Assembly: GCA_963678705.1 (NCBI GenBank)
Contig: OY783207.1
Coordinates: 558,001 to 622,000 of the forward strand
Source of the DNA: Panorpa germanica
Taxonomy: Eukaryota; Arthropoda; Insecta; Mecoptera; Panorpidae
Reading direction: 5' to 3'
Length of the DNA: 64,000 bases
Both the position numbers and the translations under genes were made by a program. This document shows, piece after piece, positions 2,490 through 36,365 of this stretch; position 1 is the stretch's first letter, and every line of letters starts with the position of its first letter. The notes under the pieces were generated by a model, which searched no databases, was not told the DNA's origin, and saw nothing but the letters and a program-made list of their open reading frames with translations.

Positions 2490-3232
2490 TTAAGGAGGTA
2501 CAGGACGTGTATCTCTCGGTAATATGAAATGCAAAATACGAACTACATGAGGGACGAGCAAATATTGGGACTGTACCTTTGAAAATGAATTTTTCAATTC
2601 CCTATTAAACTGCTTTTTGCGTGTTAAAATGATTTTTTATGCATATAATAGTTTAATAAATGAAAAATTACCTATAATTAATATCAAATTTATATTAATT
2701 CAATTTAAATACAAATTAAATATTTTGAAAAAGGAATAATAAATTTTGCAACGCTGTAAATTTACGTGTGTTGACGCATGCGTGATTTGGTTCTTTGACA
2801 AATAAATTGTTATATTTTATAAAATATTTATTCCGATTTTGAATTTCCCGCTCAAATTAGGATTTGCAACGTTGCCGGCTTCTAACCTACACTTACTGTT
2901 TCTTACTGGTTTTATTTAAATATTTTCGTATATAGGTATCCTTTTTATAATTTTCTTTTTGCAATAGTTACAGAAAAGATTCTTTTATATACACTTAGTT
3001 TTTGAAAGCCGTGTCACCATTTTTAAATAGTTAAAAGTTATATTATGTGGTGAAATTGAGCTAAAAATTATGATTTGTATGGAAAATGACTATTTTTAAT
3101 CATGTATAAAAAGAAAACTAGGAACCCTAGATCTCTAAAATTTTGAGACAGCATGTATTTTTACTATTTGTATCGACCCTCCAAATTTCACAACGTTTTC
3201 ATCATTTACGTTAACGTCCTGTACCTCCTTAA
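2490..3232. mobile_element. TTAA-flanked non-autonomous element, family B copy 1
   Basis: The ends are inverted repeats, TTAAGGAGGTACAGGACGT at the left and the complement ACGTCCTGTACCTCCTTAA at the right. The whole 743 bp is present in opposite orientation at 11685-12354. TTAA at both ends fits a piggyBac-type target site, so this is probably a piggyBac-related MITE. No transposase remains. Confidence 0.8.
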
Positions 3233-7007: not shown

Positions 7008-7667
7008 CTGTTGCATTTATATTATTATTATATTATATTAATTGTTCGCCTTTCGGCTTTACAATCTACATTCTTAATACATTTCATAGAACTTCAACTT
7101 GAAATTAAACTTAAACTATTCTAGACCTTTTTATTTCCAAAAATACTTTCTGCTTCTTCTTCTCTTGACCCTCTTCCTTCATTCTCACCGTTTCTTCACC
7201 TCTTGTCTTCTTTGTCTCCTCTCGGCAAACCGTTTCCTGCTTCTCCTTCCTTATTGCCTGTATCTTCATCTATCACCTCTTGCCTTCCTTGTCTCCTCTC
7301 GACAAACCCTCTATTATATTTTCACTATCCTTCCTGCCTTCTCTCTTCGATTTCACTTCTCCACTTATGTCTATTACAGGCATAGACGCTCTATCTTTAC
7401 TATTTCCTCTTGACTCTCTTACTTTGCTATTTCTTCTTGACTCTCTACCTTTACTAGGTTATTATTGTCTCTATCTCCGTCATCTACCTCTTGTCCTTAT
7501 CTCTTTTCCGAAAATCCTCTATTTTTCTGGACTGAAGTTTAACTGTTTCCTCGCTACTTCTTTCTTTCTCCTGCTTCCCTTCACTGTCTCTTTTAGTACT
7601 TCCTCTCTCTTCATGTTCCTTATGCAACCCAGCCACAAGCTTATTTATTGTCCTGTTGCATTTATAT
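7008..7667 (-). mobile_element. 5'-truncated LINE insertion (3' end only)
   Basis: Reverse complement of the LINE 3' part at 15671-16280. It is bounded by a 15-bp direct duplication CTGTTGCATTTATAT (7008-7022 and 7653-7667), the product of target-primed reverse transcription. The 3' end reads TTGTAAAGCCGAAAGGC on the minus strand and runs into an (ATA)n tail next to the left duplication. The body covers only the purine-rich C-terminal coding and 3' region. The open frames on the plus strand here, up to 174 codons and Leu/Phe/Ser-rich, are antisense shadows. Confidence 0.85.
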
Positions 7668-11684: not shown

Positions 11685-12354
11685 TTAAGGAGGTACAGGA
11701 GGTTAACGTAAATGATGAAACTTTTTATACATGATTAAAAATAGTCATTTTCCATACAAATCATAATTTTTAGCTCAATTTCACCACATAATATAACTTT
11801 TAACTGTAAAAAAATGGTGACACGGCTTTCAAAAACTAAGTGTATTATATAAATGAATCTTTTCTGTAACTATTGCAAAAAGAAAATTATCAAAAGGATA
11901 CCTATATCGAAAATATTTAAATAAAACCTTTAAGAAACAGTAAATGTAGGTTATAAGCCGGCAACGTTGCAAATGTCAATTTGAGCGGGAAATTCAAAAT
12001 CGGAATAAATGTTAATAAAATATAACAATTTATTGGTCAAAGAACCAAATCACGCATGCGTCAACACACGTAAATTTACAGCGTTGCCAAATTTTTTATT
12101 AATTTTTCAAAATATTTAATTTGAATTTAAATTGAATTAATATAAACTTGATATTAATTATAGGTTATTTTTAATTTATTAAACTATTATATGCATAAAA
12201 AAATCATTTTAAAAAGCAAAAAGCAGTTTAATAGGGAATTGAAAAATTCATTTTCAAAGGTACAGTCCTAATATTTGCTCGTCCCTCATGTACTTCGTAT
12301 TTTGCATTTCGTATTACCGAGAGATAAACTTTTTGCATTGACGGTACTCCTTAA
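11685..12354. mobile_element. TTAA-flanked non-autonomous element, family B copy 2
   Basis: Inverted relative to copy 1. Left end TTAAGGAGGTACAGGAGGTT; right end ACGGTACTCCTTAA is more diverged. 670 bp, with shared interior such as TTGAGCGGGAAATTCAAAAT and CACGCATGCGTCAACACACG. No coding capacity. Confidence 0.8.
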
Positions 12355-15279: not shown

Positions 15280-16407
15280 TATAGTTTAAATTACGTGAGT
15301 TCGGCGGCGACTCGTACTTAAAACAAGTTGTGCGGTATAATCTGCCGATACAACTAAAAAGCACTGACTCACTTATTTTGCTATAATGTATACAAGATAT
15401 AAAAGGATTTGGGAAAGTAATATACCTCAGTACCTAATAGAAAAAGATATAAAACACATAAGACGGACAGCAAGGTTTAGATTGGGAAATGAGGAAAAAG
15501 GAAACTGTTACTGGGAAAGTTGTGAGGAAAAAAAGTGTAGAGTGTGCGGAACGGAGGACGAAACACTGGAGCACATTAAGTTTGAGTGTAAGGAAATATC
15601 GGCCATCTATTAAAGGGAGGCAGTGAAGGAAGGAGGTGGATGGCGGAAATAGAAAAAAAGGAAAGAAAAAACAGGACAATGAATAAGCTCGTAGCTGGGT
15701 TGCATAAGTATCATGAAGAGAGAGGAAGTACTAAAAGAGGCAGTGAAGGGAAGCAGGAGAAAGAAAGAAGTAGCGAGGAAACAGTTAAACTTAAGTCTAG
15801 TAAAATAGAGGATTTGCGGAAAGAAGATAAGGACAAGAGGTGGATGACGGAGATAGAGACAATAATAACATAGTAAAGGAAGAGAGTCAAGAAGAAATAG
15901 TATAGTAAGAGAGTCAAGAGGAAATAGTAAAGATAGAGTGTTTATGCCTGTAATAGACATAAGTGGAGAAGTTAAAACGAAGAGAGAAGGCAGGAAGGAT
16001 AGTGAAAAGATAATAGAGGGTTTGTCGAGAGGAGACAAAGAAAGCAAGAGGTAATAGATGAAGATACAGGCAATAAGGAAGGAGAAGCAAGAAACGGCGT
16101 GAATAAAGGAGGAGTAGGAGACATGAAGAGAGAGGATCAAGAAAAGAAGAAACAGAAAGTACTATTCGAAGTAGTAGTAGTCTAGAATAGTTTAAGTTTA
16201 GTTTTTAACTTTTAATTTATATGAAATGCATTAAGAAATATAATAATGTATATTGTAAAGCCGAAAGGCACACAATTAATATAATAAACGAAACGAAAAT
16301 AAATAGAAACAAATAAGATAAAATTCATTATCTCAAATTTAAATTCAAAGCTCTTATAACCTCTTTTAAGTATAAGTCGCCGCTGAACTAACGTGATTTG
16401 GATTATA
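15280..16407. mobile_element. Palindromic MITE family E copy 1, split by a LINE
   Basis: The two ends (TATAGTTTAAATTACGTGAG then TTCGGCGGCGACTCGTACTT, and CTCTTATAACCTCTTTTAAG then TATAAGTCGCCGCTGAACTA) match the intact 217-bp copy at 18143-18359 in reverse orientation. Continuity breaks at the GTATAC in its middle, where the LINE at 15386-16290 was inserted. The MITE is therefore older than the LINE insertion. Confidence 0.8.
15386..16290 (+). pseudogene. LINE 3' end: reverse-transcriptase C-terminus with CCHC knuckle
   Basis: The first frame (15386-15613) ends in CRVCGTEDETLEHIKFEC, a C-x2-C-x8-H-x4-C knuckle of the kind found at the C-terminus of insect non-LTR retrotransposon ORF2 proteins. 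A stop after SAIY and a frameshift near 15640 separate it from a second frame (15640-15873, starting MAEIEKKERK) rich in Lys/Glu/Arg. The remaining sequence is almost purine-only on this strand. The 3' end is TTGTAAAGCCGAAAGGCACA followed by an AT-rich tail. The endonuclease and catalytic RT domains are absent, so this is a dead 5'-truncated copy. The clade cannot be named from this fragment. Confidence 0.75.
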
Positions 16408-21545: not shown

Positions 21546-22135
21546 TTTAAGAGTACTCTTGTTAACGTACTTTGTTTGATACATACGTTTGCTAACGTAT
21601 CTAGATACATTTGTTAGATACATTACGTAACGTATACTTTTGTTAGAAACGTTACGTAATGCATCTAGACACGTTTGTTGATGTATCTAGATACATTTGT
21701 TAGATACGTTTGTTGATGTATCTAGATACATTTCTTAGATAAGGTAGTTGATGTATAGATACGTTTGTTGATGTATCTAGATGCATTTGTTAGATACGTT
21801 ATGTAATGTATTTAGATACATTTGTTAGATATGTTTGTTAATGTATCTAGATACATTTCTTAGATACGTTAGTTGATGTATAGATACGTTTGTTGATGTA
21901 TCTAGATACATTTGTTAGATATGTTTGTTGATGTATCTAGATACATTTGTTAGATATGTTTGTTGATGTATTTAGATACATTTCTTAGATACGTTAGTTG
22001 ATGTATAGATACGTTTGTTGATGTATCTATATGCATTTGTTAGATACGTTACGTAATGTATTTAGATACGTTTGTTAATGTATCTAGATACATTTGTTAA
22101 ATACGTTAGTTAATGTATCTGGATATTTTTGTTCG
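21546..22135. repeat. Degenerate palindromic minisatellite
   Basis: Tandem copies of a unit of about 35 bp built on GATGTATCTAGATACATTTG followed by TTAGATACGTTTGT. The core GTATCTAGATAC is a perfect palindrome. The array mixes CTTAGATACGTTAG, GTTAGATACGTTAC and GTTAGATATGTTTG variants, indicating a higher-order arrangement. Confidence 0.85.
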
Positions 22136-31930: not shown

Positions 31931-32018
31931 CAACTTTTTTAAAAAATTTAAAAATCAATAAAAAAAGAAAAACTCGACAGCGTTACCTGCAGAAACTTAT
32001 CAACTAATGAAATCATTT

Positions 32019-32695
32019 ACGTCGGTGAAGATAGCAGCGGATTCGATAGCAGTCGATTCGGACTAGTGTTGTAAATCAAAACTAATTCGGTGTTAAATCG
32101 AAATTCAAATTACATGGCTAATCGGAACATTTAAGCAAATATTTAAGTAATAATAGACTGTAGAAGTATTAAGTAACCTAAATATTATTATATAATGAAT
32201 AAATTAACCAATTAGTGTCTTATATTGCTGTTTTAATATAGGAAAATAAAACGCAAACGAACATCTAAATAATCATAACTTTTTGATATTATTTTTTTAT
32301 AAATAGGTTAACTAATATGTCTCTTAGGTAATTACAAAATTTCAGCCGTCACAAATTCTTATTTTCTACAAAAAGTGCAATTTAGTGAAACTATATACAG
32401 CTCTGTTTCATATCTGTGCGGCAAGTCATAAGAAGCTTAAAAATCTAAAAAAAATTATCATTTAATGAAATTATTTGTTTATAAATAGTTTAACTAATAT
32501 ATCTCTTAGGTAGTTACAAAATTTCAGCCGTCACAAATTCTTATTTTCTACAAAAAGTGCAATTTAGTGAAACTATATACAGCAGCTCTGTTTCATATCT
32601 GTGCGGCAAGTCATAAGAAGCTTAAAAATCTAAAAAAAATTATCATTTAATGAAATTATTTGTTTATAAATAGTTTAACTAATATGTCTCTTAGG
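32019..32695 (+). repeat. Left terminal inverted repeat arm
   Basis: The outer ~285 bp are unique within the arm. Then comes a direct repeat beginning TTAACTAATATGTCTCTTAG with starts near 32304, 32486 and 32671 (periods 182 and 185 bp, the third copy cut after about 25 bp). The cut end (TTAGGTA) abuts the first 95-bp unit. Confidence 0.85.
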
Positions 32696-34025
32696 TACGA
32701 ATAAAGAGCTTAACTGTGATAACAGTTTCACGTTTACAATGAATTAATTGGCGACCTGCTAGCTTCCTAATTTACGGCAACCAATTGATTGACGAATAAA
32801 GAGCTTAACTGTGATAACAGTTTCACGTTTACAATGAATTAATTGGCGACCTGCTAGCTTCCTAATTTACGGCAACCAATTGATTGACGAATAAAGAGCT
32901 TAACTGTGATAACAGTTTCACGTTTACAATGAATTAATTGGCGACCTGCTAGCTTCCTAATTTACGGCAACCAATTGATTGACGAATAAAGAGCGTAACC
33001 GTGATAACAGTTTCACGTTTACAATGAATTAATTGGCGACCTGCTAGCTTCCTAATTTACGGCAACCAATTGATTACCGAATAAAGAGCGTAACTGTGAT
33101 AACAGTTTCACGTTTACAATGAATTAATTGGCGACCTGCTAGCTTCCTAATTTACGGCAACCAATTGATTGACGAATAAAGAGCGTAACCGTGATAACAG
33201 TTTCACGTTTACAATGAATTAATTGGCGACCTGCTAGCTTCCTAATTTACGGCAACCAATTGATTGACGAATAAAGAGCGTAACCGTGATAACAGTTTCA
33301 CGTTTACAATGAATTAATTGGCGACCTGCTAGCTTCCTAATTTACGGCAACCAATTGATTGACGAATAAAGAGCTTAACTGTGATAACAGTTTCACGTTT
33401 ACAATGAATTAATTGGCGACCTGCTAGCTTCCTAATTTACGGCAACCAATTGATTGACGAATAAAGAGCTTAACTGTGATAACAGTTTCACGTTTACAAT
33501 GAATTAATTGGCGACCTGCTAGCTTCCTAATTTACGGCAACCAATTGATTGACGAATAAAGAGCTTAACTGTGATAACAGTTTCACGTTTACAATGAATT
33601 AATTGGCGACCTGCTAGCTTCCTAATTTACGGCAACCAATTGATTGACGAATAAAGAGCTTAACTGTGATAACAGTTTCACGTTTACAATGAATTAATTG
33701 GCGACCTGCTAGCTTCCTAATTTACGGCAACCAATTGATTGACGAATAAAGAGCGTAACCGTGATAACAGTTTCACGTTTACAATGAATTAATTGGCGAC
33801 CTGCTAGCTTCCTAATTTACGGCAACCAATTGATTACCGAATAAAGAGCGTAACTGTGATAACAGTTTCACGTTTACAATGAATTAATTGGCGACCTGCT
33901 AGCTTCCTAATTTACGGCAACCAATTGATTACCGAATAAAGAGCGTAACTGTGATAACAGTTTCACGTTTACAATGAATTAATTGGCGACCTGCTAGCTT
34001 CCTAATTTACGGCAACCAATTGATT
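32696..34025. repeat. 14 x 95-bp tandem array
   Basis: Exactly 14 head-to-tail units of 95 bp (1,330 bp). Each runs GACGAATAAAGAGCTTAACT, GTGATAACAGTTTCACGTTT, ... CCAATTGATT. Each unit has two internal dyads: AACTGT/ACAGTT, and AATTAATTGG with CCAATTGATT. Units differ only at three spots, defining types A (GACG, GCTTAACTG), B (GACG, GCGTAACCG) and C (ACCG, GCGTAACTG). The order is A A A B C B B A A A A B C C (unit 1 begins TACG). There is no spacer diversity, so it is a satellite-like array and not a CRISPR. Confidence 0.97.
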
Positions 34026-34037
34026 GACGAATGATGA

Positions 34038-34648
34038 ATAATGATCGGAATAAATGACATTATGAAAGTAAGCATAAAACATTATATTAAGTAACCTTAA
34101 ATATAGCTATATGTATAACAATATAAAATACGACCAAATTTGCTTTCAGGAAAAACACTATCAAGCATTTACTTACAATATTTCAAGTATTGCAAAGATA
34201 CTAAGCGAAACTTCATCTAGAGCTATATGGTTAACTTTGCCCACTCCGCCAATATGGGAAAATGACCCTAAAAAAATAAAAACCTTAGACAAATACAACG
34301 AAAGAATTTTATCATTGTCAAAAAGCCGTAAGTTACTTTACTAATTTCATCAAAATTTTCTTTTTATTTATTTAACCAGAATATAATTTCAGATCCTTAT
34401 ATTCATGTCCTAGATATACGGGAATTATTTTTACAAAATAATAAAGTGAATGGACACTTGTTTGAGCAGTAAGAACATGAAGTTTATACTTAAATACATA
34501 CTTATATAAATAAATAAATACACAGACTCATATATGGTATACATTCCCTATTTACAGATTCTACAAGAAAAACAATAAACCCGATCAATTACATTGGAAT
34601 ATAAATGGGATGCTTAAAGTACATAAAATAATTGCACAACATATTTAA
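34038..34648 (+). CDS. SGNH/GDSL hydrolase-like gene, C-terminal half, inside the transposon
   Basis: Exon pieces: 34038-34067, 34150-34327, 34393-34468 and 34558-34648 (stop TAA). All three introns are GT-AG (donors GTAAGC, GTAAGT, GTAAGA; acceptors TTTCAG, TTTCAG, TTACAG) and all phases agree. The product reads IMIGINDIMK, then EKHYQAFTYN..., LTLPTPPIWENDP, DKYNERI, HVLDIRELF and PDQLHWNINGMLKVHK. GIND fits SGNH block III (G-x-N-D), and D-Q-L-H fits block V, where Asp and His complete the catalytic triad. Block I with the Ser nucleophile is missing: upstream the frame meets TGA codons and the 95-bp array. It is thus either a truncated pseudogene or a short product from ATG 34041. Substrate is unknown; PC-esterase-like SGNH proteins are one possible relative. 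Confidence 0.6.
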
Positions 34649-34698
34649 ACAATGTACTAAAATCAACCACTGACTATACTAAGAATGAACTAGAATTA

Positions 34699-34704
34699 AA
34701 TAAA
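34699..34704 (+). promoter_or_regulatory. Candidate polyadenylation signal of the SGNH gene
   Basis: AATAAA about 50 nt after the SGNH stop codon. The motif is common by chance in DNA this AT-rich. Confidence 0.35.
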
Positions 34705-35384
34705 AGATAGCTGTTTAATTAGTAATCGAGCTGTCATGGTAATTAGTTTCAATAAATTATAATTTTTAAAGTAAATAAAAAAGTAAAATTGTGTTACTAT
34801 TTAACAGACATATTTATTTAATCAATTTCTTAAAGTAAAATTTAATATGTTTTCTAGCAACGACTGTATTATCGTTTTCATTTGTCAATATGAACAGGTC
34901 AATGCAAGAGACAAGAGAGTCTTATTAAATAATTAAAACTATCTTCATTCAAATACTTTCATTACATAATGAGGTTTTTACGATTTTTAAATATCTTATA
35001 GTTGCCGCACAGATATGGAACAGAGCGCTCACTGAATCGACTGCCAGATTTTAAAGACGTACTGAATTTTTGGGTTATCTTTGAATTTTACATCTTATAA
35101 GTTGCCTATACAAATATGAAACCGAGCTGTCATTGTATAGGAATTTACTAAATTGCAATATTATTGCAAATTTAATTTTATATAAATTGCAATTGCTATT
35201 TATAGAAAAATAATTTTATTACATAATGAGGTTTTTACGATTTTTAAATATCTTATATGTTGCCGCACCGATATGGAACAGAGCTGTCACTGAATCGACT
35301 GCCAGATTTTATAAACGTACTGAATTTTTAGGTTATCTTTGAATTTGACATCTTATAAGTTGCCAATACAAATATGAAACAGAG
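34705..35384. repeat. Degenerate arm-related repeats
   Basis: Diverged copies of arm motifs (TTGCCGCACAGATATGGAAC, CAGAGCTGTCACTGAATCGA, ATTACATAATGAGGTTTTTA) occur twice about 250 bp apart, bridging the gene and the homogeneous right arm. Confidence 0.6.
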
Positions 35385-36112
35385 CTGTATATAGTTTCAC
35401 TAAATTGCACTTTTTGAAGAAAATAAGAATTTGTGATGGCTGAAATTTTGTAACTACCTAAGAGACATATTAGTTAAACTATTTATAAACAAATAATTTC
35501 ATTAAATGATAATTTTTTTTAGATTTTTAAGCTTCTTATGACTTGCCGCACAGATATGAAACAGAGCTGTATATAGTTTCACTAAATTGCACTTTTTGTA
35601 GAAAATAAGAATTTGTGACGGCTGAAATTTTGTAACTACCTAAGAGACATATTAGTTAAACTATTTATAAACAAATAATTTCATTAAATGATAATTTTTT
35701 TTAGATTTTTAAGCTTCTTATGACTTGCCGCACAGATATGAAACAGAGCTGTATATAGTTTCACTAAATTGCACTTTTTGTAGAAAATAAGAATTTGTGA
35801 CGGCTGAAATTTTGTAATTACCTAAGAGACATATTAGTTAACCTATTTATAAAAAAATAATATCAAAAAGTTATGATTATTTAGATGTTCGTTTGCGTTT
35901 TATTTTCCTATATTAAAACAGCAATATAAGACACTAATTGGTTAATTTATTCATTATATAATAATATTTAGGTTACTTAATTACTTAAATATTTGCTTAA
36001 ATGTTCCGATTAGCCATGTAATTTGAATTTCGATTTAACACCGAATTAGTTTTGATTTACAACACTAGTCCGAATCGACTGCTATCGAATCCGCTGCTAT
36101 CTTCACCGACGT
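35385..36112 (-). repeat. Right terminal inverted repeat arm
   Basis: Three direct copies of the ~183-bp arm repeat (landmark ACCTAAGAGACATATTAGTT near 35456, 35640 and 35820). After the last copy comes the unique outer part, ending at CACCGACGT. It is the reverse complement of the left arm. Confidence 0.85.
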
Positions 36113-36365
36113 AAATCATTTTGGTTTTTCGATTTGTTACCGACATAATGACACCGCAATGTTACTTTTGTTGTGACGTCAGCGGAGATTCGCTGACAAT
36201 GCCTCATTTCTTGATATTTATTTATGAAAATTTCACAAAGTATTCGTCAAATATCATATTATCATGTACTAATTATAGAAATAATTATATATTAACAGTG
36301 TCGTCAAAAAACATTATCGAAAATATGCTTTGTTTTTTATCGTTTTGATCTTACCCCCTCCTTAA

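Follow-up and report, generated by a model that had tools for sequence, protein, structure and literature searches.

The region analysed is a window of 64,000 nucleotides from the insect Panorpa germanica (Mecoptera; assembly GCA_963678705.1, contig OY783207.1, positions 558,001 to 622,000, forward strand), which contains a foldback transposon carrying part of an SGNH-hydrolase gene. The element spans positions 32019-36112 (4,094 bp) and is flanked by perfect 9-bp duplications, as claimed in an earlier note made from the sequence alone. Directly inside both duplications lie the inverted ends, ACGTCGGTGAAG... and ...CTTCACCGACGT. The near-identical long inverted arms with direct repeats described in that note were also recovered: the arms are complementary over 416 nt at 100% and over 142 nt at 99%, which is not explicable by chance, and they contain direct repeats of 182-185 bp (2.3 copies on the left, 2.7 on the right). 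The tandem array, given as 14 x 95 bp, measured 14.1 copies with 98% matches. A search of the window against Rfam returned no match. The layout of the element is shown in Table 1.

Table 1. Features of the foldback element, in window positions
Feature	Position	Strand	Basis
Left target-site duplication, AAATCATTT	32010..32018	.	seen in sequence
Left arm: terminal inverted repeat and 185-bp subrepeats, 679 bp	32019..32697	+	
Family-specific minisatellite, 14.1 x 95 bp	32697..34032	+	
SGNH exon 3 remnant (block III, IMIGINDIMK), then its splice donor	34038..34067	+	
SGNH exon 4	34150..34327	+	
SGNH exon 5	34393..34468	+	
SGNH exon 6, with block V (DQLHWN) and stop codon	34558..34648	+	
Right arm, inner part; diverged subrepeats; found in both arms of fuller copies	34701..35195	+	
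Right arm: 182-bp subrepeats and terminal inverted repeat	35196..36112	-	
Right target-site duplication, AAATCATTT	36113..36121	.	seen in sequence

The spliced SGNH gene of the earlier note is real in its blocks III (IGIND) and V (DQLHWN) and its GT-AG splice sites, but only the 3' portion of the gene is present, namely exons 4 to 6 preceded by the final 30 nt of exon 3. It is a gene fragment, with no block I (GDSF), no block II and no N-terminal zinc finger. The window copy also lacks a transposase, and its description as non-autonomous is correct.

The genome was searched with the first 301 bp from position 32010, and duplication lengths were tabulated, both of which had been suggested in the earlier note. 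At least 41 matching places were found in the 464-Mb genome, a lower bound with 40 of 560 candidates scored, and 20 regions were taken for comparison of the copies. Every element with both ends readable (15 of 15, the window included) has perfect duplications, 11 of them of 9 bp and four of 8 bp; copies with one visible end (L026, L027) or none (L028) were left out of this tally. A 31-kb family member at C1:6127827-6158943 (L024, L025, L035) has a perfect 9-bp duplication. This copy, of which the outer parts were read, perhaps holds nested insertions. We also considered that the arms and the array might be collapsed or misjoined in the assembly, since palindromes and arrays are hard to assemble. 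Clean duplications around all 15 copies tested and the recurrence of variants of one design make such an artefact extremely improbable.

The 95-bp unit occurs in four elements of the family (window, C1, C2 and C8), and the junction between array and exon 3 in the window is common to the three other array-bearing elements. Degraded units were found on C16, inside family member L017, and on C21. The array is a minisatellite of the family, with a copy number that varies; a genomic satellite was rejected, as the unit was found only in the window family apart from the single degraded one on C21, and the label "satellite" used in the earlier note was misleading.

The complete form of the SGNH gene is seen in other copies. 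In the 6.8-kb copy L013, six exons with GT-AG sites encode 275 residues without a stop, beginning with a BED-type finger (C-x2-C...H-x4-H) and continuing as an SGNH hydrolase with GDSF, SG, GIND and DQLH, so that the S, G, N and D..H blocks of these enzymes are all present. In Pfam the finger scores below threshold for both zf-BED (17.2 bits, cut-off 20.6) and zf-met2 (21.3, cut-off 27). Six such genes with six exons, GT-AG sites and an open frame were found in five copies, namely L009, L012, L013, L014 (two genes) and L015, the last with an altered block V. Exons are absent or damaged in L010, L011 and L016, and the region taken for L024 stops before the last SGNH exon. The proposed search for copies with both a transposase and a complete SGNH gene thus yielded open SGNH genes and a transposase frame of 399 residues in L013 and L015, but no intact transposase of the window family (family A).

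SGNH genes of this type are not confined to family A. A 73-residue SGNH exon query gave 76 matches in the genome, of which 73 SGNH places were kept, and further families (B to E) carry SGNH sequences 35-66% identical in exon 3. Exon boundaries could be read fully for families A and E and largely for C, while those of B and D come from separate protein matches. With the GDSL_2 profile, families C and E score over the cut-off, A just under it and B under it. The catalytic S, N, D and H are kept in the family-A and E proteins. In family B (L049, L051), block II reads SE instead of SG, and decay is visible as a stop after HWN in L053, loss of the block-I serine in L056 and GSS at block I in L054. 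The ratio of nonsynonymous to synonymous substitution rates (dN/dS) was 0.18 between A and B (510 nt), 0.29 between two E copies (411 nt) and 0.16 between C and D (282 nt), all from partial sequences and without a significance test. A PDB search with the family-A SGNH alone gave no match up to E 10, and family E has a weak TesA-type match in NCBIfam. Searches of plasmids found none, phages gave two records with one weak match each, and viral contigs gave one weak locus (25%). The family-E copies L058 and L059 match each other at 86-88% from exon 3 onwards but nowhere upstream of it, and can be read either as a mobile element or as a host gene family.

The second gene of the fuller copies encodes a transposase and is divergent (head-to-head) from the BED-SGNH gene. 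In L013 and L015 it has a 399-residue frame that runs up to the start of the right arm, where SGNH exon 4 sequence lies. The frames of relatives L036-L038 and L040 extend further, through a second D and NCCNH to VESWF or a close variant of it. Taken together, L036-L040 are divergent transposases of the DDE type, and their open frames measure 754 to 1,170 residues, those of the relatives of the fuller-form transposase measuring 1,111-1,170. L037 and L040 have a C-terminal Ulp1/SENP-like (C48) protease domain, and L040 a weak Ulp1-type match in NCBIfam. The 31-kb C1 copy contains a longer transposase in three broken frames, with the second D, C-x2-H, E and C48. A D-D-E triad with C-x2-H is the transposase motif of Mutator-like elements (MULEs), and the Ulp1-like (C48) domain of L037 and L040 is reminiscent of plant MULEs that have such a domain. 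We read DATGS, TTDFS, NCCNH and VESWF by eye, as an unscored motif, as D-D-E with C-x2-H.

The pairing of the two genes extends beyond family A. The 399-residue transposase query gave at least 97 matches (104 of 131 candidates scored), from which 51 transposase places were kept; no more than 20 kb separates 22 of the 73 SGNH places from such a place, and the 20-kb zones round the transposase places make up about 0.44% of the genome. SGNH copies of several other families lie near transposase places. A family-B element at C6:12299673-12304460 is itself a palindrome with two SGNH copies and a 10-bp duplication, and its end motif ACGTCGCTGAAG is nearly the same as ACGTCGGTGAAG of the window family.

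These data bear on how the SGNH gene came to lie in the element. The earlier note had offered two options, capture of an SGNH gene by the element or derivation from an element encoding one. The second agrees with the six open BED-SGNH genes in five other copies and with the genes of the other families. Recent capture by the window copy was rejected, as those families carry the same spliced gene, and we regard it as largely refuted. A broader version, in which one element recently took up a host SGNH gene in the manner of a Pack-MULE and its copies spread it, could draw on L012 and L014, which keep the SGNH gene without a match in the transposase search, and on the known capture of genes by Mutator-like elements (PMC6446971). 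This version seems to us quite improbable, since the other families share exon boundaries where these were read, several of them near transposase places. No host donor was seen either: the GDSL_2 profile gave one ordinary SGNH, of the PAF-AH type and with a different intron, in a weak donor search that missed split transposon exons too. The gene therefore appears to belong to the transposon lineage, because the fuller copies carry it, other families repeat the pairing and dN/dS is low.

The origin of the arms is best seen in L015 and L014. The right arm of L015 is an inverted copy of its left end through the "mid" part and SGNH exons 6, 5 and part of 4, giving arms of about 1.9-2.1 kb. In L014 the entire SGNH half forms a palindrome that bears two complete SGNH genes, and the transposase search gave no match in this copy. 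We posit that a fuller form had a transposase with a C48 domain and a six-exon BED-SGNH gene, placed divergently between inverted ends, and that long arms formed when an inverted copy of the SGNH-bearing end overwrote the transposase end. Repeated inverted duplication of this kind is the simplest reading and might occur, for example, by template switching in gap repair. In the window copy both the transposase and the 5' half of the SGNH gene have been lost and the minisatellite stands at 14 copies; copies may move by transposase supplied in trans. The BED finger might bring the SGNH esterase to the DNA of the element, as a putative accessory factor.

Oskar founds the germ line in flies and is an insect germ-plasm organiser, and the origin of its gene is a textbook example of how a new gene can be formed with a bacterial one. 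Its OSK domain belongs to the SGNH fold family. The Pfam OSK profile finds one locus in the Panorpa germanica genome (L060, G000:C12, about 278-281 kb). It is a genuine oskar gene, with an OSK match of 1.8e-49, a sub-threshold LOTUS domain (16.7 bits) in an upstream exon and 86.9 bits against Drosophila Oskar; the gene has been reported lost in most Lepidoptera (PMC8662646). Two of the three introns in the OSK domain of L060 match introns of families A and E in phase and mostly in alignment column. The first is in phase 0, three residues past the D of GxND, and the second in phase 2, splitting the codon that follows (F/Y)E ahead of block V. Across 15 alignments (a set of six and a set of nine), the first intron falls in the same column in all 15 and the second in 13. 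Under random placement, the chance of at least two exact matches among three introns is 7e-5, and 8e-4 within one codon. The third intron of each is not common to the two genes, the introns just before the domain differ, and a PAF-AH-type SGNH of the same genome, the one control, has its intron elsewhere.

Profile comparisons and trees were added to this. Among families A, B, C and E, the OSK profile (cut-off 27) is passed by A with 38.5 bits over positions 13-198 and by E with 31.7, while C stays under it with 25.9. None of 14 control genomes exceeded the cut-off, and two of four bacterial genomes did so in a smaller scan. The score was rejected as a proof of kinship, since bacterial SGNHs score comparably, although their matches lie mostly within about positions 50-170. 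A profile built from transposon SGNHs only ranked Drosophila Oskar first among the 177,635 sequences of the PDB (1.3e-5; next 3.5e-4), an argument weakened by bacterial proteins that score higher. Two trees, with 16 and 22 bacterial proteins, join OSK and the transposon SGNHs at a single point separate from those bacteria (98/99 and 98/95). These trees are unrooted with long branches, and the grouping means that the sampled bacteria, with PAF-AH too in the 16-protein tree, lie on the other side; those bacteria are Bacteroidota by search group or title, with no Firmicutes. In the 22-protein tree, a branch (90/92) likewise separates OSK together with the bacteria from the transposon SGNHs. The trees show a common attachment point and not a proven clade. 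As the profile scores, unrooted trees and approximately unbiased (AU) tests are indecisive, the case for OSK rests mainly on the introns.

Two other histories must be weighed. OSK and the transposon SGNH could stem from separate bacterial transfers, with coincidental intron matches. Comparable profile scores with Bacteroidota SGNHs fit this, the AU tests are compatible with OSK joining bacteria, and a published tree nests OSK in bacterial GDSL lipases (PMC7250577). We nevertheless hold it to be unlikely, because two of three introns agree in position and phase at a chance of about 7e-5, and because both trees, though unrooted, give OSK and the transposon SGNHs a common attachment point outside the sampled bacteria. 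Alternatively, an early oskar, its OSK domain still catalytic, could long ago have supplied the transposon SGNH, a history that would explain the common introns and agrees with the position of OSK sequences outside the transposon clade in both trees. This seems doubtful to a similar degree. All four residues S, N, D and H survive in the proteins of families A and E, whereas the OSK domains of Panorpa germanica and Drosophila have GDD and SVD and lack the block-V H (the L060 exons read GDDF, GSVD and LWN against GDSF, GIND and HWN in the transposon proteins). Such a transfer must also predate the split of flies and Panorpa germanica, because the two OSKs group together (99/95 and 100/97).

The best reading of these sequences is that the transposon SGNH and the OSK domain share an intron-bearing ancestor, and part of Oskar may thus share its origin with a mobile element. 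We give a probability of roughly 80% to the view that the window element belongs to a foldback DDE family as a non-autonomous, palindrome-derived member, and that its SGNH gene comes from the transposon lineage and shares an intron-bearing ancestor with OSK. The more specific proposal, that OSK was domesticated from an intron-bearing SGNH of this lineage, keeping two introns and losing catalysis, is a tentative one to which we would give somewhat less than even odds.

A number of observations weigh against this overall view. All evidence for it is sequence from one genome. No intact family-A transposase was seen among the copies read, and family-E SGNHs have no match nearby in the 399-residue transposase search. 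The foldback/MULE-like assignment of the earlier note fits the long subrepeated arms, the 8-10-bp duplications (8-11 bp in MULEs) and the relatives in which D-D-E and C-x2-H can be read by eye, but no Mutator/MULE Pfam model matches L037, the 399-residue frame, L038, L040 or two L035 pieces, so that MULE membership rests on motifs read by eye and on duplication length. Family B has no match to the OSK profile. Bacterial SGNHs exceed its cut-off in at least 11 of 395 genomes, the best with 45.4 bits against 38.5 for family A; the count is a lower bound because G001 passed in the smaller scan and had no match in this one. Among 95 proteins (92 bacterial) scored with the transposon profile, L148, L137 and L147 rank above Drosophila Oskar, and six bacterial proteins rank above the OSK of Panorpa germanica. 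OSK with bacteria is not rejected by the AU test (p 0.101 and 0.153). In two of the 15 alignments the second introns lie 2 to 8 columns apart; both alignments are of the five-row set without Drosophila OSK, in which gap placement separates even families A and E.

Foldback elements of Drosophila (FB) have long repeat-built arms and duplications of about 9 bp. The window family, with 8 or 9 bp, resembles them in this respect, and it shares with FB, Tetris (PMC4079207) and Tm1 of root-knot nematodes, which has a Mutator-type transposase (PMC3169594), the long composite arms with internal repeats and the many deleted or rearranged copies. It differs in arms that hold BED-SGNH exons and in a transposase with a Ulp1-like domain, and the parts of those reports available to us describe no SGNH gene. 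With Rehavkus of arthropods and annelids, it has in common 9-bp duplications, terminal repeats, an internal minisatellite and an arthropod host (PMC6446971). Rehavkus has one open reading frame (ORF), a PHD finger and 26-400-bp repeats (Table 1 of PMC6446971), whereas the window family has two genes, arms that reach about 1.9-2.1 kb in L015 and an array seen in four copies only. No PHD finger was matched in the transposase frames scanned, several of which are incomplete. Phantom and other arthropod MULEs likewise show 8-10-bp duplications, variable inverted repeats and, in some, minisatellites (PMC6446971, PMC13359780); unlike in Phantom, the frames scanned gave no Pfam match to FLYWCH or SWIM. 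In the available parts of these two papers, a survey of 4,268 arthropod genomes describes MULEs by transposase ORFs only.

SGNH hydrolases are known as accessory proteins of mobile elements from the esterase domain of CR1, RTEX and Penelope (PMC3905857) and from GDSL ORFs of rotifer long terminal repeat (LTR) elements, for which independent capture was inferred (PMC5408684). Those are retroelements, and the passages available mention no BED finger. Closer in kind is the fish gene texim, an intron-bearing SGNH gene moved with a DNA transposon, but it moves with Helitrons and is reported to be related to PAF-AH, CR1 and bacterial hydrolases (PMC4021074). OSK (PDB 5a4a/5cd9) resembles the transposon SGNH in fold family, two introns and a full-length profile match. 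Unlike the transposon SGNH, which retains its catalytic residues and is joined to a BED-type finger, OSK has lost these residues, carries a LOTUS fusion and binds RNA (PMC7250577, PMC8662646, PMC13389597).

OSK has been treated as bacterial in origin (PMC7250577, PMC8662646, PMC13389597), a possibility already raised in PMC3084197. According to PMC7250577, BLASTp with the OSK domain found no similar eukaryotic sequence, an OSK profile search found only fungal sequences besides Oskar, and Firmicutes are the main phylum of the OSK tree; the word "intron" is absent from the text of that paper. An intron-sharing relative inside a transposon would offer a eukaryotic source for OSK and can be tested in existing insect genomes. 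The pairing of a Ulp1-like transposase with BED-SGNH would provide a new accessory protein to study, and a gene-bearing end turned into arms a concrete route to the foldback structure. In the openly licensed literature, with Repbase reports outside the scope, searches for SGNH with Mutator, foldback or DNA transposons, and for oskar with transposons, GDSL or introns, gave no description of the combination found here among the matches listed.

Elsewhere in the window, an inverted pair of 462 nt (91%; 7196-7657 and 15670-16131) possibly marks another large inverted repeat. Both of its arms contain 27-bp tandem repeats (7385-7456 and 15855-15932), and shorter inverted pairs lie nearby, for example 2507-3113 with 11721-12329. 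Positions 21666-22133 hold a dense array built from TAGATACGTTTGTTGATGTA-type units, its nested periods ranging from 13 to 125 bp.

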